Source: Flectonema sp. DT1601
Taxonomy: Eukaryota; Euglenozoa; Diplonemea; Diplonemida; Diplonemidae
Length of the DNA: 64,000 nucleotides
Direction of reading: 5' to 3'
Assembly: GCA_964019425.1 (NCBI GenBank)
Contig: OZ025812.1
Location: forward strand, 821,027-885,026
Below, piece by piece: positions 2,757-64,000 of this stretch; within the stretch, counting starts at the first letter, position 1, and every line of letters starts with the position of its first letter. The position numbers and the translations under genes are program-made. The notes below the pieces were generated by a model. It was not told the origin of the DNA, ran no database searches, and saw nothing but the letters and a program-made list of their open reading frames with translations.

Positions 2757-2978
2757 ATTTTCTTTTTTTCTTCTTGTTTCTTCTTTTCTTCTTGACATAT
2801 CAAAATATGAATAGTTATTTGTGTTGAGTCAACCAAGTTTTAGAAAAAAAAATAATAATTAAAAAAAAAGTGAAGAGTCAGTCACTTCAAATTCATCATT
2901 GGATTGTGTGAATTTCTTTTTTTTTTTTTTTTTTAAGGATAGAGAGGCTAGATAGAGGGAGAGAGCAAACCCTCTCGG

Positions 2979-3057
2979 AACCAGCGATCCTTCTGTTGAT
3001 GTGAGAATGTGTGCTAAAAAATATAAACCACATCAACAGTCTTAAGCTGGTTTTACA
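2979..3057 (+). ncRNA. Candidate single-hairpin H/ACA-like RNA
   Basis: Lower stem AACCAGC (2979-2985) pairs with GCTGGTT (3046-3052); upper stem CTGTTGATGTG (2993-3003) pairs perfectly with CACATCAACAG (3029-3039). Between the stems are 7 unpaired bases on the left and 6 on the right, like a pseudouridylation pocket. An ACA triplet at 3055-3057 lies 15-16 nt after the top of the pocket, the spacing known for H/ACA guides. This is structural resemblance only; no target was identified. It could instead be a UTR hairpin. Confidence 0.35.
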
Positions 3058-3293
3058 GGTCCCGCGATTACCCGTTTTTTATAAATAGTTGGTTGCTGTG
3101 TTTTTTCCTCTAAAAAAAGTAAAAAACTTTTTTTTATTTTGAACGCACATACAAATCTCTCTTCTTCTTATTGTTGTGCTACATTGCGAACACTTTTGGT
3201 GTTGTGTGCGAGTTGTGAAGTTACCAGTGTTGCGTTAGTTTTTATTTTTTATTTATTTTTTTTATTCAATCACAAAAAACAGCGGAAAAAAAA

Positions 3294-52024: not shown

Positions 52025-53888
52025 CTGACTAGGTAACCGTTCCCTGCGTAGTTTTTTTTTCTTTTTTCTTTTTTCTTTTTTCTTTTTGCATGTTCTTAAA
52101 AAAAAAAAAAGGAAAAAAAAAAAAAAAAACAACAACGTTTCTTATCTATCTTCTTCATGTTTTAATATAATTTTTTTCTTTTTTCTTTTTTTTTTTTTTT
52201 TTTTTTTTTCATTCGGAGACCTTTTCTGGCTCTGCGAACGACATCGTTACAGTAGTGATAGTCGGATAGTTTTATTATTTTATTAATTTTTTTTTATTCC
52301 TTTTTTCTTCTGTTGAGTTGCGGGAACTAAATGTGTAACAGGACCGAATGATTGAAAAGTGATCCCTAAAAACTACATATTGTCGCTTTTTTAGATGCTT
52401 GTGATGGGCTATTGACATATTGCTTATCTAAAGCATAACCGACTTCGTTTTTCTTTCCCTCGAATGACTGGATTAATCAATGAAGTAGCTGTTGCAATTT
52501 TTTTTTCCTTCTTTTTGTAAGTAATTTTCCCTTTCTTTTTTTGTTTTGTTGTTTGCGACGTGGTAGCAGCCGTCTCGGAGGGGGAGAGGGGGCTCTGTTT
52601 GTGAAATTGATTAGGAATTCAACAAACTCTCGAGGTTTTATTTTTAAAACAGCATTGTTTATATCTATTTATTTTTTTAAAATTTAATTACTTGTTTGTT
52701 GACATTACTCTGATCGAAAAAAAATTTGCCACGAAAGTTTATCCCTTTAGAGACGGATCGCCCACCACTTCATTATTATTATTTTTTTTTTTTTCAAATT
52801 TTATGCAAAAAAAAAAAAAAAAAACCAAAAAAAAGAAGCGGATAAGTATTTTTATCACTAAGTTGAGAAACAGAAAAAAAAAAAAAAAAAAAAAAAAAAA
52901 CAATATTTTAATTTGTTCTTTAAGTTGAGATCTTTACGGGAAAATAAAAATAAAAAATAAAAAATAGAAGAAAACCGCTGTACTGTTCTTAAACTCTCCT
53001 TCTACATGAGCTGTGGAAGCGACTGCTTAATACGTGAGGGTTCATTGATACTAGCTAACAAGCTTTATCGCTGTTGAGGGTGAGAATACTGTGGGCATGC
53101 AAAAAAAAAAATGGACTCGTGTAGGGTATCTATAGATAGCTTATTGTAGGGTTTTGAGTGCGTTGTTGTTACTGCATGCGACCAATCAATTTTTTTTATC
53201 TCTCTCTCTTTTTTTTTTTTTTTTTTTTTTTGACATGATCTGTCCCAACAGGTATACCTTATACAAAAGTGAAAGATCACATACCTATATATTCGTATTC
53301 TATTTTGTTTGATTTAAAAATAATTTTTTTTGAAACGTTTTTTAGCTTTCCGCCATTTGAGACTTACAAATTAATTTTTCTTATATGTTTTTTCGAGAGC
53401 AATCTAATAACAGGGTTGCTGGTTGACCCTCCAAGCTTCCCTCCCTCGGGTAAGCTGAAGCCGTTAGCAGAGAGCTACAAGGTGAGGGGAAAAAAAAACA
53501 AAAAAAACAAGAAAAATTAAAATTAAAATTAAAACACCTGCAATGAAAAAAGCAAAAAGAAAATGTATAAGAAGATTATTATGCAAGAACCCTGAGAAAT
53601 GAGGAAAAAAAAAAAAAAAGTTGACACCCCCGACCCAAGCACCCCCTTTTAGGTGGTAAACCAAAAAACTTATTGGCTTAGTTTATTCAATTTAAAAAAC
53701 TCATTTTCCTTGGAAATTCGAATTTCTTATTTTTTATACCAAGACAGACGCAATTTAGCAAACCATGAACTGCGAGGTCAATAAAGTACTTTATCTGTAT
53801 TAATTGTGTTTGTTTTGTTTGTTGTTTTTATTCATTTTTGAAATATTATTTTTTGACAGATCAAAAGAAAACAACAAAAGTCACAACA

Positions 53889-55874
53889 ATGAAATCGAGT
53901 TTGCTAATGCTATCGGCGTTGGCTGTCGGAGTGACTGAGGGTAAGGAAGTGTTGGAAACGTTGTTTTCGTACAACTGTCAGGGACAGGCTCACATAGCTC
54001 CTGATGCTCTTGGTGGGTCGGCTATCGACATGTCTGTTGTAGAGAGAATGTGGGGGACATACATGGGTCGTGTGAAGGAGAGAGTTTCATGCCACTGTCC
54101 GTTTGTATCACATCAGGTACTTGAAGAGAGGTTCGGACTGTTTCAGAATTTTGTTGACAACTTAATGAATCCAAACTTCGTACTGACACCAGATGCATGC
54201 CTGGATAATATCAACGATCCAACAATGGACATCGCTAAGCTGATGAAGAATGTGCAGTTTCCACTGAAAGTACCGGTCTCTGGTATCGAGACATGTCCAT
54301 CACCGTCTTTGAAGACGGCTGATGGAAGGTGTTTGTTTCAAATTGAACTTCCGATTGTTGAAACGCAACTTCAAGTAGCATTCCTGAGATGTGATTCCGG
54401 GAGACCGGCATTCTCACTTCACTGCGGAGGTAAGTACTGTGATGTTTCAAAGCCTTGCGTAAGTGATTCTGAATGTGAGGGAACATGTTTATCAGTTGAT
54501 AGTATGTTCATGATGTTTGATCAAAGCACACAACTGAAAGCTTCTGACTTATTCGCAGCTGGGTTGTCGAGTATTGGATTAAGTCTTTCTTCATGTGGTG
54601 TTTCTGCTGTGGATGTGGTGACTAACGTGTTTCGAAGGATGACCAACAACCAGCAGGCTGTTGGTTTCTGCATCCCAAAGCTTCTTTCTTTGGGGAACTT
54701 CGCTCAGCACATTGGAGAGTTTGCGATTGGACAGGAATCGGAGTTCGGAAGCTGCGCTGATGAACTTACTAAATTATATTCACCAAAACCAGTAACATAC
54801 ACGATCAACAAACAGTACATTAAAAGTTGGGATGGTGCGTTGTCATCAGGTGAGGATGCGTTGTACAATCTTGAGGTATCTCCATACCCGAAAGTGTCTT
54901 CACTTCCATTAGGAACTCTGGGGGCTACGTACAACTGCAAGGATGAATTGCTTATTCCGTTCTTCGGAATCAGAACCGGCTACAGTCTGATACTTCAGGC
55001 ACTGGCGGAAGAAGGTCAGGCATTATGGAAATGTCAGGGTCAGAATCCGATCTTCTTTGAGTACAATGAAATGATTTGGAATCCGGGTTTCTGGACTGCG
55101 GCCTTCTCTGATTTCCAGGATGGAGTTTATGCGAAGGACCTTTGCACTCTCGCTTCTCAGTACATTGGAGCATTTGCGGATGCGTGTCCAAAGATGGGTA
55201 GTGGTGGTGGTGGTGGTAGTGCAGATGATGCGTCAACCATGTCAGGGTTTCCTTACAAACTATTGGCACCGACTTCCAGTATGGGTTTCCTGAGCTGGAG
55301 TACGAAAAGAATGATGTCGTTGTTGTGGAATGTTCCAAAGGTTGCCGGTAACGACGCTCAAGTAAAGGGTTGGGTAGAGGAGTGTAAATCTCATCCGATG
55401 GGTCTTCCTTCAGTTACCGCGATTCTTGATGGTTCCTTGGCAAAGGCGATGTCGATGAAAGACGGATGCAACAGCAACAGCGACTGTCCTAGCGACATGA
55501 TGTGCACGCCAATGACTGAGCTGTTCGGATCAATGGACTTCACGGCATCGTTTCTATGGCAGTACTACGATGTCAATGGTTGTGCTAAGAAGTCTGCTGA
55601 TTACGAGAACGAGGAGCTTACTGGTTTCAAGCCAAAGGGACATGAAAAGTGTGCGTCGACGGAATCGTTTGTTGAGGACCTGTTAATTGTGGATCCGTTC
55701 AACGGAGGAAAGAAACACGAAGCGTTGCAGAGAATTAAGAAGGCTGGGTATCAGATCTGTATTCCAAACATTCAATCAACATCTGATCCTGACTTTATTC
55801 ATCCTACCGCTGCTGGGATGACGTTAAACGGATTAGAGGCTCTCAATGAGCTTAACCCTCTGAGAAATGATTAA
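53889..55874 (+). CDS. Secreted Cys-rich protein of unknown family, array copy 1
   Basis: 661 aa from the first credible ATG; the frame extends upstream only through TTG and an acceptor-like TTGACAG ending at 53860. Residues 1-17 (KSSLLMLSALAVGVTEG) read as a signal peptide, so the product should be secreted or luminal; no later TM segment is clear. Many cysteines, with two similar motifs, CVSDSECEGTC (about 190) and CNSNSDCPSDMMC (about 528), suggesting a repeated disulfide module. A GSGGGGGS linker at about 437 divides the protein into two halves. No catalytic motif or family is recognised. Base and codon use is visibly less AT-rich than neighbours, as in highly expressed genes. Differs from copies 2 and 3 by Met versus Thr at codon 208 (nt 54511). 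The role is unknown; coat, adhesin or digestive functions are all possible. Confidence 0.85.
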   Translation: MKSSLLMLSALAVGVTEGKEVLETLFSYNCQGQAHIAPDALGGSAIDMSVVERMWGTYMGRVKERVSCHCPFVSHQVLEERFGLFQNFVDNLMNPNFVLTPDACLDNINDPTMDIAKLMKNVQFPLKVPVSGIETCPSPSLKTADGRCLFQIELPIVETQLQVAFLRCDSGRPAFSLHCGGKYCDVSKPCVSDSECEGTCLSVDSMFMMFDQSTQLKASDLFAAGLSSIGLSLSSCGVSAVDVVTNVFRRMTNNQQAVGFCIPKLLSLGNFAQHIGEFAIGQESEFGSCADELTKLYSPKPVTYTINKQYIKSWDGALSSGEDALYNLEVSPYPKVSSLPLGTLGATYNCKDELLIPFFGIRTGYSLILQALAEEGQALWKCQGQNPIFFEYNEMIWNPGFWTAAFSDFQDGVYAKDLCTLASQYIGAFADACPKMGSGGGGGSADDASTMSGFPYKLLAPTSSMGFLSWSTKRMMSLLWNVPKVAGNDAQVKGWVEECKSHPMGLPSVTAILDGSLAKAMSMKDGCNSNSDCPSDMMCTPMTELFGSMDFTASFLWQYYDVNGCAKKSADYENEELTGFKPKGHEKCASTESFVEDLLIVDPFNGGKKHEALQRIKKAGYQICIPNIQSTSDPDFIHPTAAGMTLNGLEALNELNPLRND

Positions 55875-55938
55875 GTTAAAAGAAAACGATCGTTTTGTTA
55901 AAATGCTCACTCTTGCTCTTGCTCTCTTCCTCTTCATT

Positions 55939-55986
<48 letters not shown>

Positions 55987-57155
55987 ATGTTTGTTCGGAT
56001 GAGAAGTTACGGAATAAATGAGGAATTCTAAAATTTGTATATTTCTTTATCTAGTAAGACCTAACTCCTTTGATAAAAAGAAGATATGTTTTCCTTGTTG
56101 AGAATGAGTGATGCTTATCCTGATCCTGATCCTAGCCTTGAGAATTTTCTTTTTTTTTTTCTATTTATTCACATCTTTAAGAAATGAATCGCCCAACATG
56201 TTTCTTTTTCAATGCTGTTTCTTTTTCTTTGACCGCCAACACCTCTGTTTTCAATTTTCAATTTGTCACGCACGTTTCCTTAGATTCCATCTGTTGACAA
56301 CCCGCCCTCTTTTGAATGTGACAACGAATTGGTGATGCAGTTTTGAAATGGAAGAATTAGGCTTTCGTTGTGGAGATGTATTCTTTCGAGAACCTCTTCG
56401 ATGACTTTTTCCCATTGGATTTTTATTATTAATTCTGTTCCATCTTCTTGACCATCATTGATTGCACACACAAGAAGCGGGAAAAACAAAACAAAGCAAA
56501 ACAAAGAAAGAAGGAAATCCCGTCTTCCGAGATGCGTGAGTTTCACTCATGTTTCGTGCCAACTAATCCTTTCTGAGTAGGTGTGTCAAAAGAAAACATT
56601 TTTTTTTTTTTAAAATTCTCCCTCCCTATTTTTATTTGTATTGTTGGTTGATTTATATATTCCATTCGATAAACACGAGTATTTGATCATCATCGACCAC
56701 ACTTTGATACATGAAGAGCGACCCTTCGTTTTCAATCGTCTCTTTCACTACGGTCGATCTTCCTCAGTCGATTTCTATTAATAAATACAAAAAAGCAAAC
56801 TCTTTTTAACTTTCATGTCGTGTGAGTGTATTGTGTAGAGTATTGCGAAATATTTAAAAAAAAGAAAAACAAAAACAGATTCTTTCATTTAGTTGAAGGA
56901 ATGACAAACTGTTCCGCTCTTCCTAAATCCTTTTCATTAATTTTGGCCTGCCGAACTCACTTCAGCTCAGCTGTAGTTCGTTGTTGAAGTGACCTTGACC
57001 GTCGTTTAGTTCAGTCTTCACCTTTGGCCACCATCGTTCCAACAGTCGGTTTCTTTCTAACTGGATCCGAATGAATTGTGTTTTGTTTGTTGTTTGTTGT
57101 TTTTTAGAAATATTATTTTTTGACAGATCAAAAGAAAACAACAAAAGTCACAACA
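55875..57155. other. Array spacer 1
   Basis: Contains the T45 tract, T-rich segments, a CACTTCA...TGAAGTG 7 bp stem (about 56959-56992), and at the right end TTTTTTAG and TTTTTTGACAG acceptor-like sites before the next ATG. An antisense 88-codon frame (56280-56546) is discussed under rejected items. Confidence 0.6.
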
Positions 57156-59141
57156 ATGAAATCGAGTTTGCTAATGCTATCGGCGTTGGCTGTCGGAGTG
57201 ACTGAGGGTAAGGAAGTGTTGGAAACGTTGTTTTCGTACAACTGTCAGGGACAGGCTCACATAGCTCCTGATGCTCTTGGTGGGTCGGCTATCGACATGT
57301 CTGTTGTAGAGAGAATGTGGGGGACATACATGGGTCGTGTGAAGGAGAGAGTTTCATGCCACTGTCCGTTTGTATCACATCAGGTACTTGAAGAGAGGTT
57401 CGGACTGTTTCAGAATTTTGTTGACAACTTAATGAATCCAAACTTCGTACTGACACCAGATGCATGCCTGGATAATATCAACGATCCAACAATGGACATC
57501 GCTAAGCTGATGAAGAATGTGCAGTTTCCACTGAAAGTACCGGTCTCTGGTATCGAGACATGTCCATCACCGTCTTTGAAGACGGCTGATGGAAGGTGTT
57601 TGTTTCAAATTGAACTTCCGATTGTTGAAACGCAACTTCAAGTAGCATTCCTGAGATGTGATTCCGGGAGACCGGCATTCTCACTTCACTGCGGAGGTAA
57701 GTACTGTGATGTTTCAAAGCCTTGCGTAAGTGATTCTGAATGTGAGGGAACATGTTTATCAGTTGATAGTATGTTCACGATGTTTGATCAAAGCACACAA
57801 CTGAAAGCTTCTGACTTATTCGCAGCTGGGTTGTCGAGTATTGGATTAAGTCTTTCTTCATGTGGTGTTTCTGCTGTGGATGTGGTGACTAACGTGTTTC
57901 GAAGGATGACCAACAACCAGCAGGCTGTTGGTTTCTGCATCCCAAAGCTTCTTTCTTTGGGGAACTTCGCTCAGCACATTGGAGAGTTTGCGATTGGACA
58001 GGAATCGGAGTTCGGAAGCTGCGCTGATGAACTTACTAAATTATATTCACCAAAACCAGTAACATACACGATCAACAAACAGTACATTAAAAGTTGGGAT
58101 GGTGCGTTGTCATCAGGTGAGGATGCGTTGTACAATCTTGAGGTATCTCCATACCCGAAAGTGTCTTCACTTCCATTAGGAACTCTGGGGGCTACGTACA
58201 ACTGCAAGGATGAATTGCTTATTCCGTTCTTCGGAATCAGAACCGGCTACAGTCTGATACTTCAGGCACTGGCGGAAGAAGGTCAGGCATTATGGAAATG
58301 TCAGGGTCAGAATCCGATCTTCTTTGAGTACAATGAAATGATTTGGAATCCGGGTTTCTGGACTGCGGCCTTCTCTGATTTCCAGGATGGAGTTTATGCG
58401 AAGGACCTTTGCACTCTCGCTTCTCAGTACATTGGAGCATTTGCGGATGCGTGTCCAAAGATGGGTAGTGGTGGTGGTGGTGGTAGTGCAGATGATGCGT
58501 CAACCATGTCAGGGTTTCCTTACAAACTATTGGCACCGACTTCCAGTATGGGTTTCCTGAGCTGGAGTACGAAAAGAATGATGTCGTTGTTGTGGAATGT
58601 TCCAAAGGTTGCCGGTAACGACGCTCAAGTAAAGGGTTGGGTAGAGGAGTGTAAATCTCATCCGATGGGTCTTCCTTCAGTTACCGCGATTCTTGATGGT
58701 TCCTTGGCAAAGGCGATGTCGATGAAAGACGGATGCAACAGCAACAGCGACTGTCCTAGCGACATGATGTGCACGCCAATGACTGAGCTGTTCGGATCAA
58801 TGGACTTCACGGCATCGTTTCTATGGCAGTACTACGATGTCAATGGTTGTGCTAAGAAGTCTGCTGATTACGAGAACGAGGAGCTTACTGGTTTCAAGCC
58901 AAAGGGACATGAAAAGTGTGCGTCGACGGAATCGTTTGTTGAGGACCTGTTAATTGTGGATCCGTTCAACGGAGGAAAGAAACACGAAGCGTTGCAGAGA
59001 ATTAAGAAGGCTGGGTATCAGATCTGTATTCCAAACATTCAATCAACATCTGATCCTGACTTTATTCATCTTACCGCTGCTGGGATGACGTTAAACGGAT
59101 TAGAGGCTCTCAATGAGCTTAACCCTCTGAGAAATGATTAA
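57156..59141 (+). CDS. Secreted Cys-rich protein of unknown family, array copy 2
   Basis: 661 aa, the same protein as copy 1 except Thr at codon 208 and a Pro-to-Leu change near the C-terminus (nt 59071, CTT instead of CCT). Signal peptide, two C-x-S-x-S-(D/E)-C motifs and Gly linker are unchanged. The near absence even of silent differences points to very recent duplication or ongoing gene conversion rather than selection on the protein alone, because the spacers are equally identical. Confidence 0.85.
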   Translation: MKSSLLMLSALAVGVTEGKEVLETLFSYNCQGQAHIAPDALGGSAIDMSVVERMWGTYMGRVKERVSCHCPFVSHQVLEERFGLFQNFVDNLMNPNFVLTPDACLDNINDPTMDIAKLMKNVQFPLKVPVSGIETCPSPSLKTADGRCLFQIELPIVETQLQVAFLRCDSGRPAFSLHCGGKYCDVSKPCVSDSECEGTCLSVDSMFTMFDQSTQLKASDLFAAGLSSIGLSLSSCGVSAVDVVTNVFRRMTNNQQAVGFCIPKLLSLGNFAQHIGEFAIGQESEFGSCADELTKLYSPKPVTYTINKQYIKSWDGALSSGEDALYNLEVSPYPKVSSLPLGTLGATYNCKDELLIPFFGIRTGYSLILQALAEEGQALWKCQGQNPIFFEYNEMIWNPGFWTAAFSDFQDGVYAKDLCTLASQYIGAFADACPKMGSGGGGGSADDASTMSGFPYKLLAPTSSMGFLSWSTKRMMSLLWNVPKVAGNDAQVKGWVEECKSHPMGLPSVTAILDGSLAKAMSMKDGCNSNSDCPSDMMCTPMTELFGSMDFTASFLWQYYDVNGCAKKSADYENEELTGFKPKGHEKCASTESFVEDLLIVDPFNGGKKHEALQRIKKAGYQICIPNIQSTSDPDFIHLTAAGMTLNGLEALNELNPLRND

Positions 59142-59205
59142 GTTAAAAGAAAACGATCGTTTTGTTAAAATGCTCACTCTTGCTCTTGCTCTCTTCCTCT
59201 TCATT

Positions 59206-59252
<47 letters not shown>

Positions 59253-60421
59253 ATGTTTGTTCGGATGAGAAGTTACGGAATAAATGAGGAATTCTAAAAT
59301 TTGTATATTTCTTTATCTAGTAAGACCTAACTCCTTTGATAAAAAGAAGATATGTTTTCCTTGTTGAGAATGAGTGATGCTTATCCTGATCCTGATCCTA
59401 GCCTTGAGAATTTTCTTTTTTTTTTTCTATTTATTCACATCTTTAAGAAATGAATCGCCCAACATGTTTCTTTTTCAATGCTGTTTCTTTTTCTTTGACC
59501 GCCAACACCTCTGTTTTCAATTTTCAATTTGTCACGCACGTTTCCTTAGATTCCATCTGTTGACAACCCGCCCTCTTTTGAATGTGACAACGAATTGGTG
59601 ATGCAGTTTTGAAATGGAAGAATTAGGCTTTCGTTGTGGAGATGTATTCTTTCGAGAACCTCTTCGATGACTTTTTCCCATTGGATTTTTATTATTAATT
59701 CTGTTCCATCTTCTTGACCATCATTGATTGCACACACAAGAAGCGGGAAAAACAAAACAAAGCAAAACAAAGAAAGAAGGAAATCCCGTCTTCCGAGATG
59801 CGTGAGTTTCACTCATGTTTCGTGCCAACTAATCCTTTCTGAGTAGGTGTGTCAAAAGAAAACATTTTTTTTTTTTTAAAATTCTCCCTCCCTATTTTTA
59901 TTTGTATTGTTGGTTGATTTATATATTCCATTCGATAAACACGAGTATTTGATCATCATCGACCACACTTTGATACATGAAGAGCGACCCTTCGTTTTCA
60001 ATCGTCTCTTTCACTACGGTCGATCTTCCTCAGTCGATTTCTATTAATAAATACAAAAAAGCAAACTCTTTTTAACTTTCATGTCGTGTGAGTGTATTGT
60101 GTAGAGTATTGCGAAATATTTAAAAAAAAGAAAAACAAAAACAGATTCTTTCATTTAGTTGAAGGAATGACAAACTGTTCCGCTCTTCCTAAATCCTTTT
60201 CATTAATTTTGGCCTGCCGAACTCACTTCAGCTCAGCTGTAGTTCGTTGTTGAAGTGACCTTGACCGTCGTTTAGTTCAGTCTTCACCTTTGGCCACCAT
60301 CGTTCCAACAGTCGGTTTCTTTCTAACTGGATCCGAATGAATTGTGTTTTGTTTGTTGTTTGTTGTTTTTTAGAAATATTATTTTTTGACAGATCAAAAG
60401 AAAACAACAAAAGTCACAACA
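59142..60421. other. Array spacer 2
   Basis: Same as spacer 1 apart from 44 instead of 45 T in the long tract. Acceptor-like TTTTTTGACAG again lies 28 nt before the next ATG. Confidence 0.6.
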
Positions 60422-62407
60422 ATGAAATCGAGTTTGCTAATGCTATCGGCGTTGGCTGTCGGAGTGACTGAGGGTAAGGAAGTGTTGGAAACGTTGTTTT
60501 CGTACAACTGTCAGGGACAGGCTCACATAGCTCCTGATGCTCTTGGTGGGTCGGCTATCGACATGTCTGTTGTAGAGAGAATGTGGGGGACATACATGGG
60601 TCGTGTGAAGGAGAGAGTTTCATGCCACTGTCCGTTTGTATCACATCAGGTACTTGAAGAGAGGTTCGGACTGTTTCAGAATTTTGTTGACAACTTAATG
60701 AATCCAAACTTCGTACTGACACCAGATGCATGCCTGGATAATATCAACGATCCAACAATGGACATCGCTAAGCTGATGAAGAATGTGCAGTTTCCACTGA
60801 AAGTACCGGTCTCTGGTATCGAGACATGTCCATCACCGTCTTTGAAGACGGCTGATGGAAGGTGTTTGTTTCAAATTGAACTTCCGATTGTTGAAACGCA
60901 ACTTCAAGTAGCATTCCTGAGATGTGATTCCGGGAGACCGGCATTCTCACTTCACTGCGGAGGTAAGTACTGTGATGTTTCAAAGCCTTGCGTAAGTGAT
61001 TCTGAATGTGAGGGAACATGTTTATCAGTTGATAGTATGTTCACGATGTTTGATCAAAGCACACAACTGAAAGCTTCTGACTTATTCGCAGCTGGGTTGT
61101 CGAGTATTGGATTAAGTCTTTCTTCATGTGGTGTTTCTGCTGTGGATGTGGTGACTAACGTGTTTCGAAGGATGACCAACAACCAGCAGGCTGTTGGTTT
61201 CTGCATCCCAAAGCTTCTTTCTTTGGGGAACTTCGCTCAGCACATTGGAGAGTTTGCGATTGGACAGGAATCGGAGTTCGGAAGCTGCGCTGATGAACTT
61301 ACTAAATTATATTCACCAAAACCAGTAACATACACGATCAACAAACAGTACATTAAAAGTTGGGATGGTGCGTTGTCATCAGGTGAGGATGCGTTGTACA
61401 ATCTTGAGGTATCTCCATACCCGAAAGTGTCTTCACTTCCATTAGGAACTCTGGGGGCTACGTACAACTGCAAGGATGAATTGCTTATTCCGTTCTTCGG
61501 AATCAGAACCGGCTACAGTCTGATACTTCAGGCACTGGCGGAAGAAGGTCAGGCATTATGGAAATGTCAGGGTCAGAATCCGATCTTCTTTGAGTACAAT
61601 GAAATGATTTGGAATCCGGGTTTCTGGACTGCGGCCTTCTCTGATTTCCAGGATGGAGTTTATGCGAAGGACCTTTGCACTCTCGCTTCTCAGTACATTG
61701 GAGCATTTGCGGATGCGTGTCCAAAGATGGGTAGTGGTGGTGGTGGTGGTAGTGCAGATGATGCGTCAACCATGTCAGGGTTTCCTTACAAACTATTGGC
61801 ACCGACTTCCAGTATGGGTTTCCTGAGCTGGAGTACGAAAAGAATGATGTCGTTGTTGTGGAATGTTCCAAAGGTTGCCGGTAACGACGCTCAAGTAAAG
61901 GGTTGGGTAGAGGAGTGTAAATCTCATCCGATGGGTCTTCCTTCAGTTACCGCGATTCTTGATGGTTCCTTGGCAAAGGCGATGTCGATGAAAGACGGAT
62001 GCAACAGCAACAGCGACTGTCCTAGCGACATGATGTGCACGCCAATGACTGAGCTGTTCGGATCAATGGACTTCACGGCATCGTTTCTATGGCAGTACTA
62101 CGATGTCAATGGTTGTGCTAAGAAGTCTGCTGATTACGAGAACGAGGAGCTTACTGGTTTCAAGCCAAAGGGACATGAAAAGTGTGCGTCGACGGAATCG
62201 TTTGTTGAGGACCTGTTAATTGTGGATCCGTTCAACGGAGGAAAGAAACACGAAGCGTTGCAGAGAATTAAGAAGGCTGGGTATCAGATCTGTATTCCAA
62301 ACATTCAATCAACATCTGATCCTGACTTTATTCATCCTACCGCTGCTGGGATGACGTTAAACGGATTAGAGGCTCTCAATGAGCTTAACCCTCTGAGAAA
62401 TGATTAA
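60422..62407 (+). CDS. Secreted Cys-rich protein of unknown family, array copy 3
   Basis: 661 aa. Carries Thr at codon 208 like copy 2 and Pro at the late site like copy 1, so the two variants are shuffled among copies as expected from unequal crossing-over or gene conversion. All other visible features are as in copy 1. Confidence 0.85.
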   Translation: MKSSLLMLSALAVGVTEGKEVLETLFSYNCQGQAHIAPDALGGSAIDMSVVERMWGTYMGRVKERVSCHCPFVSHQVLEERFGLFQNFVDNLMNPNFVLTPDACLDNINDPTMDIAKLMKNVQFPLKVPVSGIETCPSPSLKTADGRCLFQIELPIVETQLQVAFLRCDSGRPAFSLHCGGKYCDVSKPCVSDSECEGTCLSVDSMFTMFDQSTQLKASDLFAAGLSSIGLSLSSCGVSAVDVVTNVFRRMTNNQQAVGFCIPKLLSLGNFAQHIGEFAIGQESEFGSCADELTKLYSPKPVTYTINKQYIKSWDGALSSGEDALYNLEVSPYPKVSSLPLGTLGATYNCKDELLIPFFGIRTGYSLILQALAEEGQALWKCQGQNPIFFEYNEMIWNPGFWTAAFSDFQDGVYAKDLCTLASQYIGAFADACPKMGSGGGGGSADDASTMSGFPYKLLAPTSSMGFLSWSTKRMMSLLWNVPKVAGNDAQVKGWVEECKSHPMGLPSVTAILDGSLAKAMSMKDGCNSNSDCPSDMMCTPMTELFGSMDFTASFLWQYYDVNGCAKKSADYENEELTGFKPKGHEKCASTESFVEDLLIVDPFNGGKKHEALQRIKKAGYQICIPNIQSTSDPDFIHPTAAGMTLNGLEALNELNPLRND

Positions 62408-63663
62408 GTTAAAAGAAAACGATCGTTTTGTTAAAATGCTCACTCTTGCTCTTGCTCTCTTCCTCTTCATTTCTTTTTTTTTTTTTTTTTTTTGATGTTT
62501 GTTCGGATGAGAAGTTACGGAATAAATGAGGAATTCTAAAATTTGTATATTTCTTTATCTAGTAAGACCTAACTCCTTTGATAAAAAGAAGATATGTTTT
62601 CCTTGTTGAGAATGAGTGATGCTTATCCTGATCCTGATCCTAGCCTTGAGAATTTTCTTTTTTTTTTTCTATTTATTCACATCTTTAAGAAATGAATCGC
62701 CCAACATGTTTCTTTTTCAATGCTGTTTCTTTTTCTTTGACCGCCAACACCTCTGTTTTCAATTTTCAATTTGTCACGCACGTTTCCTTAGATTCCATCT
62801 GTTGACAACCCGCCCTCTTTTGAATGTGACAACGAATTGGTGATGCAGTTTTGAAATGGAAGAATTAGGCTTTCGTTGTGGAGATGTATTCTTTCGAGAA
62901 CCTCTTCGATGACTTTTTCCCATTGGATTTTTATTATTAATTCTGTTCCATCTTCTTGACCATCATTGATTGCACACACAAGAAGCGGGAAAAACAAAAC
63001 AAAGCAAAACAAAGAAAGAAGGAAATCCCGTCTTCCGAGATGCGTGAGTTTCACTCATGTTTCGTGCCAACTAATCCTTTCTGAGTAGGTGTGTCAAAAG
63101 AAAACATTTTTTTTTTTTTTAAATTCTCCCTCCCTATTTTTATTTGTATTGTTGGTTGATTTATATATTCCATTCGATAAACACGAGTATTTGATCATCA
63201 TCGACCACACTTTGATACATGAAGAGCGACCCTTCGTTTTCAATCGTCTCTTTCACTACGGTCGATCTTCCTCAGTCGATTTCTATTAATAAATACAAAA
63301 AAGCAAACTCTTTTTAACTTTCATGTCGTGTGAGTGTATTGTGTAGAGTATTGCGAAATATTTAAAAAAAAGAAAAACAAAAACAGATTCTTTCATTTAG
63401 TTGAAGGAATGACAAACTGTTCCGCTCTTCCTAAATCCTTTTCATTAATTTTGGCCTGCCGAACTCACTTCAGCTCAGCTGTAGTTCGTTGTTGAAGTGA
63501 CCTTGACCGTCGTTTAGTTCAGTCTTCACCTTTGGCCACCATCGTTCCAACAGTCGGTTTCTTTCTAACTGGATCCGAATGAATTGTGTTTTGTTTGTTG
63601 TTTGTTGTTTTTTAGAAATATTATTTTTTGACAGATCAAAAGAAAACAACAAAAGTCACAACA
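62408..63663. other. Array spacer 3
   Basis: Like spacers 1 and 2, but with only 20 T in the long tract and one T/A change near 63121 at the edge of a shorter T run. Confidence 0.6.
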
Positions 63664-64000
63664 ATGAAATCGAGTTTGCTAATGCTATCGGCGTTGGCTG
63701 TCGGAGTGACTGAGGGTAAGGAAGTGTTGGAAACGTTGTTTTCGTACAACTGTCAGGGACAGGCTCACATAGCTCCTGATGCTCTTGGTGGGTCGGCTAT
63801 CGACATGTCTGTTGTAGAGAGAATGTGGGGGACATACATGGGTCGTGTGAAGGAGAGAGTTTCATGCCACTGTCCGTTTGTATCACATCAGGTACTTGAA
63901 GAGAGGTTCGGACTGTTTCAGAATTTTGTTGACAACTTAATGAATCCAAACTTCGTACTGACACCAGATGCATGCCTGGATAATATCAACGATCCAACAA
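63664..64000 (+). CDS. Secreted Cys-rich protein, array copy 4, cut by the window end
   Basis: First 112 codons, identical by eye to copies 1-3, including the signal peptide and the preceding acceptor-like site. The frame is open to the last base, so the array holds at least four copies. Confidence 0.85.
   Translation, partial: MKSSLLMLSALAVGVTEGKEVLETLFSYNCQGQAHIAPDALGGSAIDMSVVERMWGTYMGRVKERVSCHCPFVSHQVLEERFGLFQNFVDNLMNPNFVLTPDACLDNINDPT

Follow-up and report, generated by a model that had tools for sequence, protein, structure and literature searches.

A 64,000-nucleotide stretch of genomic DNA (the window; C33:821027-885026 in an assembly of 92 contigs and 89,535,806 bases) ends in a tandem array of a gene for a cysteine-rich protein, made up of four head-to-tail, near-identical units. 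We consider it probable that this is a dosage array of a diplonemid-type euglenozoan, by which the cell makes more of a soluble secretory protein. In our view the likeliest role of the product is that of a cargo or coat protein made in abundance and sent outside the cell or to a secretory vesicle. The architecture is ordinary for the lineage and expected from kinetoplastids; it is the protein family that is undescribed. The evidence shows the array, the host type, the comparable arrays, the patchwork of copy 4 and the family relationship through the A module; we infer the co-transcription and trans-splicing of the array gene, its high expression, and the secretion, disulfide bonding and role of its product.

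The coding sequences (CDS) start at C33:874915, 878182, 881448 and 884690, which gives steps of 3267, 3266 and 3242 bp. Each unit looks like a self-sufficient cassette of candidate acceptor, 29-nt leader, 661-codon gene, 3′ region and spacer, for which a promoter of its own would be unneeded (table below). Aligned over ~3.2 kb, units 1-3 differ by three internal substitutions (unit positions 675, 1968, and 2776) and one boundary base, and the steps differ because a poly(T) tract varies in length, being shorter by 1 in unit 2 than in unit 1 and by a further 24 in unit 3. These results are in accord with the first-pass annotation, which had described four units of ~3.25 kb with the same steps, about three base changes, and a poly(T) tract accounting for the step differences. 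The product has 661 aa in copies 1-3 and 662 aa in copy 4; among copies 1-3, residue 208 is M in copy 1 and T elsewhere, and residue 639 is L in copy 2 and P elsewhere. The four full copies recovered by a whole-genome DNA search (five scored candidates, repeat counts being lower bounds) all lie in this array; the fifth candidate is a piece of 389 bp on C27. The left flank of unit 1 has no excess likeness to the inner spacers, scoring 26 where nine control intergenic stretches of the window score 23-39.

It is conceivable that the assembler inflated or collapsed the copy number, given the near identity of the copies and a protein cluster of the array product (P0002) that lists nine members. However, private changes and poly(T) lengths set copies 1-3 apart, unlike sequence lies at both edges of the array, and copy 4 is distinct. 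These points count against a pure artefact but not against a wrong copy number, and overall we regard an assembly artefact as quite improbable.

Copy 4 is a patchwork. Compared with copy 3, successive stretches have 0/951, 14/1011 (Fisher p=1.3e-4), and 1/310 differences, and the spacer that follows has 110/382, against the preceding 1/310 (p=8e-31). The first part of this downstream spacer has 77.7% identity over 479 columns by BLAST, so that its divergence is 22% to 29% according to the comparison used. Of the 12 codons that differ between copies 3 and 4, eight alter the amino acid. The patchwork requires an older edge copy in which stretches were overwritten later, and it supports sequence overwriting within the array together with drift at the edge rather than one burst alone. 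The maintenance by conversion proposed from the window thus gains support. The related suggestion that variants are mixed between copies does not follow from the three sites in copies 1-3 alone, and it is copy 4, most of which lies beyond the window, that bears it out.

The principal rival explanation is a very recent, selectively neutral tandem expansion, whereby the copies would be alike because they are young and not because they are homogenised or needed. Only three internal substitutions separate copies 1-3, and the poly(T) tracts of copies 1 and 2 are one base apart, as such an expansion would predict, but it would not predict a copy 4 that mixes 0/951 and 1/310 stretches with a stretch of 1.4% divergence and a spacer diverged by 22-29%. 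We therefore consider it unlikely that recent expansion is the whole explanation, although copies 1-3 may have expanded recently in addition to being homogenised.

The piece on C27 (L009:4356-5292) is a scrambled array fragment, in which two spacer pieces and one coding piece are joined directly. Its parts match, with 97.8-100% identity, unit positions 2535-2761, 2811-3125, and 150-542, taken from adjoining units; it is not an intact gene, having two stops in frame. No Rfam family was found at gathering thresholds in the window, L006, L007, or L009.

Open reading frames (ORFs) of at least 200 aa in the window are all on the + strand, with the exception of three that overlap a 1340-aa Sec24-like gene. 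Because of this one-directional layout we tested for spliced-leader (SL) trans-splicing. A genome search with the 19-base SL 3′ end of kinetoplastid and diplonemid leaders returned 733 matches with at most one mismatch, compared with 0 for the reversed control. Among the matches listed are tandem runs on C16, where the step is 623 bp, and on C20, where it is mostly 610 bp. The leader in these tandem units is 39 nt long, AACCAACGATTCTAAAGCTACAGTTTCTGTACTTTATTG, and is adjoined by sequence that we take to be 5S rRNA-like. Judged by eye, this leader lies two positions away from the entry ‘Euglenozoa 14’ and farther from the 13 other euglenozoan entries in the portion of PMC3795323 that displays them. 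The host is a spliced-leader euglenozoan and very probably a diplonemid. The closest entry, ‘Euglenozoa 14’, is presumably Diplonema. The SL matches and the tandem SL/5S-like units are genomic evidence that the host uses spliced-leader trans-splicing, and the ORF orientation places the array gene within a one-directional cluster.

In such a host, genes would be co-transcribed and each capped by spliced-leader trans-splicing, presumably including the array gene. Upregulating a gene through its own promoter would be difficult under co-transcription, and copying a promoterless cassette (acceptor, CDS, 3′ region, and spacer) would instead yield more mRNA. Unequal exchange and gene conversion would homogenise the inner copies to near identity, with drift in the edge copy. 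The product would consist of one A and one B module (see below) and would be a soluble protein of the secretory pathway with putative disulfides. Jackson's review (PMC4413820) describes trypanosomatid tandem arrays as perhaps a way to more abundant transcripts where transcription is polycistronic; it also reports their concerted evolution and an array end that is often differentiated. The present array resembles those described there in its near-identical head-to-tail copies, its setting in a polycistronic trans-splicing genome, its concerted evolution, and its differentiated end, but differs in its diplonemid-type host and in a protein family without known relatives.

Comparable arrays occur in the same genome, which argues against a neutral expansion. 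On the same contig, a genome search (63 of 88 candidates scored) located 11 HSP70 copies (C33:524102-554386) at steps of 2853 or 2856 bp. Of the three leading units fetched, the second and third match exactly over 2853 bp, and all differences of the first lie at least 263 bases upstream of its ATG. Against copy 2, the two rightmost copies have 1 and 4 base differences in the CDS, in an ungapped comparison that is out of register beyond +2513. The HSP70 array thus shares with the Cys-rich array its contig, a near-constant step, identical inner units (two among the three fetched), differences toward an edge (the left one in HSP70), and an acceptor-like site before the ATG, here 26 nt before it in a similar layout; it differs in having 11 copies and in encoding a conserved chaperone. 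Genes of the Pfam family PF00009 (GTP_EFTU) form a further array of eight copies at ~4.0 kb on C79, plus one farther off, and smaller clusters on C18, C20, C31, and C56. We withdrew the names EF-2-like and EF-1-alpha-like for these genes, as the identification reaches the Pfam family only. Tandem arrays are one usual arrangement in this genome, though not the only one.

Codon adaptation was used as a proxy for expression, with four reference sets: two tubulins, the C45 HSP70, the C33 HSP70, and the tubulins plus the C45 HSP70. The array gene exceeds all 16 of the 16 window genes under each set. Where the C33 HSP70 array gene is not part of the reference (three sets), the Cys-rich array gene is about level with it (0.396 vs 0.388, 0.360 vs 0.356, and 0.374 vs 0.363). 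Four of the large relatives described below do not have raised codon adaptation despite a higher GC3. These scores are consistent with raised expression, but codon adaptation is a weak proxy, and its weakness suits the neutral expansion.

Several observations weigh against dosage amplification. Codon adaptation is higher in a relative of 923 aa on C7, seemingly not in an array, than in the array gene itself (0.599 vs 0.565), and with amino acids and GC3 fixed the Sec24-like gene reaches a z of 10.7 compared with 8.7 for the array gene. Because of these two results we lowered our confidence in the dosage reading slightly. The tubulins and the C45 HSP70 lie far above the array gene (tubulins 0.65-0.71, array gene 0.36, when the C45 HSP70 is the reference), and the bias of the 11-copy HSP70 gene is itself only modest. 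Arrays are not the sole route in this genome, the 59 tubulin matches (45 within 7 bits of the best) being mostly dispersed over contigs. Furthermore, the nine member sequences of the P0002 cluster go with a 368-kb contig and not this 1.10-Mb contig, and array copy number may differ elsewhere. The amplification of an abundant protein suggested by the first-pass annotation is accordingly backed by the spliced-leader context, the HSP70 and PF00009 arrays, and the codon adaptation of the gene, and is weakened by the higher score of the C7 relative.

The array protein contains the two C-x-S-x-S-(D/E)-C motifs noted previously, CVSDSEC (190) and CNSNSDC (527). A protein search (7997 candidates sharing most words scored) identified three proteins, its own cluster P0002 and two EukProt transcript products with 49% identity (P0003 and P0004), and a profile search identified the same three. 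Both EukProt homologues lack the exact motif and the Gly linker; all 26 Cys are invariant in the three proteins, none of which has an N-glycosylation sequon. No match to Pfam was obtained at the cut-off for the array protein (best E 0.13), for P0003 and P0004, or for five larger relatives, and NCBIfam gave 0 families for the four members searched. The PDB yielded nothing of note by phmmer (best E 0.12) and nothing by a profile of alignment A2, and the family was not found described in an open-access keyword search of the literature without supplementary files. The protein had been reported to belong to no recognisable family, and as far as Pfam, NCBIfam, and the PDB go, it does indeed represent an undescribed one.

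Structure prediction was uninformative. AlphaFold2 models of the full protein (nine-row alignment A2) and of module A alone (A3) had mean pLDDT of 34.6 and 45.0, both too poor to use, and Foldseek with the latter found no PDB match at E <= 0.001 (best 0.95, the top matches being mostly small lipocalin fragments), a result that we treat as meaningless. A TULIP-like lipid-binding fold, considered on account of the strand-helix layout, was dropped because no Pfam match or structure stood behind it.

The start of the array protein is signal-peptide-like by eye, and the protein is probably a soluble product of the secretory pathway held by disulfides among its 26 Cys. Its highest 19-residue hydropathy is 1.47, with no anchor-like hydrophobic segment at the C-terminus. 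Because this peak lies below the 2.42-3.58 of membrane relatives, a soluble secreted form appears likelier than a surface-anchored one. Of the earlier description of the product as secreted or surface, the first part is therefore favoured, and anchoring at the surface is disfavoured by the want of a strong hydrophobic segment.

The array protein has distant matches in its own genome, 14 in number at 26-32% identity, including two with E of about 0.25. Open frames of 1653-1740 codons were read on C5, C48 (twice), and C63, and a further one on C41 is cut by the fetched stretch; relatives on C7, C21, and C27 have shorter or broken frames. A search with one large relative retrieved six proteins (P0005-P0010), three from EukProt at 56-61% and three from ENA, the latter being by eye the same as the frames read on C48, C5, and C41. 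The large relatives (1.64-1.73 kaa) have a signal-peptide-like start, modules in the order A-B-A-B, a Ser/Gly-rich stretch, and one strong C-terminal hydrophobic segment, with 5-11 sequons and the peak hydropathies quoted above (six relatives). With module borders that we set, hhalign profile comparison of the array protein and the large relatives gave probabilities of 97.4% and 97.7% for module A, and 67% and 62% for module B, the latter being weak support. Modules A and B were not found to be homologous to each other (hhalign at most 23%), although their Cys spacing is alike by eye.

We consider the array protein to be, on these profile comparisons, the apparent soluble A-B form in a family of A-B-A-B membrane proteins, the family relationship resting on the A module. 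The membrane relatives differ from it in their two A-B sets, Ser/Gly-rich stretch, C-terminal hydrophobic segment, and sequons, and their genes differ from the array gene in being dispersed over contigs and, in the four tested, in lower codon adaptation. A Cys-rich family with larger membrane-anchored members, and the eight nonsynonymous of 12 codon differences between copies 3 and 4, could indicate a store of surface-protein variants of the kind found in antigen-switching families. We find this highly improbable, as copies 1-3 are at most two residues apart and their product has no anchor-like C-terminal hydrophobic segment. A more specific role for the array under the dosage reading is tentative and, in our estimate, rather doubtful: it may encode a major secreted or extrusome-type diplonemid cargo, of a lineage-restricted, 26-Cys, sequon-free family whose A-B module also occurs in giant membrane proteins, the soluble and anchored forms being a matched set that would make up a so far undescribed feeding-apparatus or cell-coat material.

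Some features of individual relatives were also recorded. The C41 (L030) and C63 (L031) relatives are 99.4% identical over 4651 bp, the likeness beginning some 30 bases 5′ of the ATG, with no match farther upstream at the threshold used; retroposition was considered for this pair, and no SL was present at the boundary. The two C48 relatives (L033 and L034), about 80 kb apart, are 99.0% identical over 4906 bp and differ at their stalk and tail ends. In the diverged C21 relative (L036:2291-4942) the frame enters a long KQTN repeat that may be a microsatellite of an intron or spacer. The 923-aa C7 relative (L029:4191-6965) was not seen in an array.

Diplonemids are abundant and very species-rich marine protists of which few genomes have been studied. 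The occurrence of the Cys-rich array beside arrays of HSP70 and PF00009 GTPases suggests that copy number may flag proteins made in bulk, and copy number thus singles out an uncharacterised, probably secreted protein for testing. Diplonema papillatum, in the sections of PMC10161547 on its genome, has unidirectional gene clusters and a 39-bp SL repeated with 5S and U2, the SL being carried by essentially every mRNA examined; the present genome shares with it the unidirectional clusters, SL trans-splicing, and linkage of SL RNA to 5S. The repeats described in those sections differ from the present array, comprising gene parts and arrayed copies of a 283-aa ORF that is not transcribed, and not near-identical whole expressed genes. 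Excerpts of PMC12697944 report a diplonemid cell-membrane cluster rich in secreted carbohydrate-degrading enzymes and mention hypothetical cell-membrane components, and for six diplonemids part of PMC12621601 gives draft assemblies with N50 up to 11,390 bp.

Table. Features of the Cys-rich gene array, in window coordinates
Feature	Position	Strand	Basis
Unit 1, left edge of array	53837..57102	+	Sequence alignment
Candidate spliced-leader acceptor, T-rich, ending in AG, 29 nt 5′ of ATG	53840..53859	+	Read from sequence, compared with HSP70 array genes
CDS copy 1, 661 aa, 26 Cys, signal-peptide-like start (by eye)	53889..55874	+	ORF and translation
Poly(T) tract, source of step differences	55937..55985	+	Unit alignment
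Unit 2	57103..60368	+	Alignment
CDS copy 2, 661 aa	57156..59141	+	ORF, alignment
Unit 3	60369..63610	+	Alignment
CDS copy 3, 661 aa	60422..62407	+	ORF, alignment
Start of unit 4; CDS from 63664, continuing beyond window to C33:886678; 662 aa, patchwork, diverged downstream spacer	63611..64000	+	Genome search, alignment

Elsewhere in the window, the Sec24-like gene (window:14400-18422) contains, in its 5′ part, a long run of degenerate repeats in which Pro, Gly, and Gln codons abound. Outside the SL tandem units, the leader was found at dispersed places on C1, C2, and C3 (L037-L044), and in all eight of those fetched it heads sequence that is not of the SL gene. Two pairs, L037/L041 (98% over 651 bp) and L039/L042 (99.9% over 987 bp), are alike 3′ of the leader and unlike 5′ of it, a pattern as expected of retroposed SL-capped transcripts or retroelements. 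SL-tagged retrogenes are known from dinoflagellates. In L042 a second, partial leader copy, TACTTTATTG, comes after the first, as though a leader already retroposed had gone through another round of trans-splicing.

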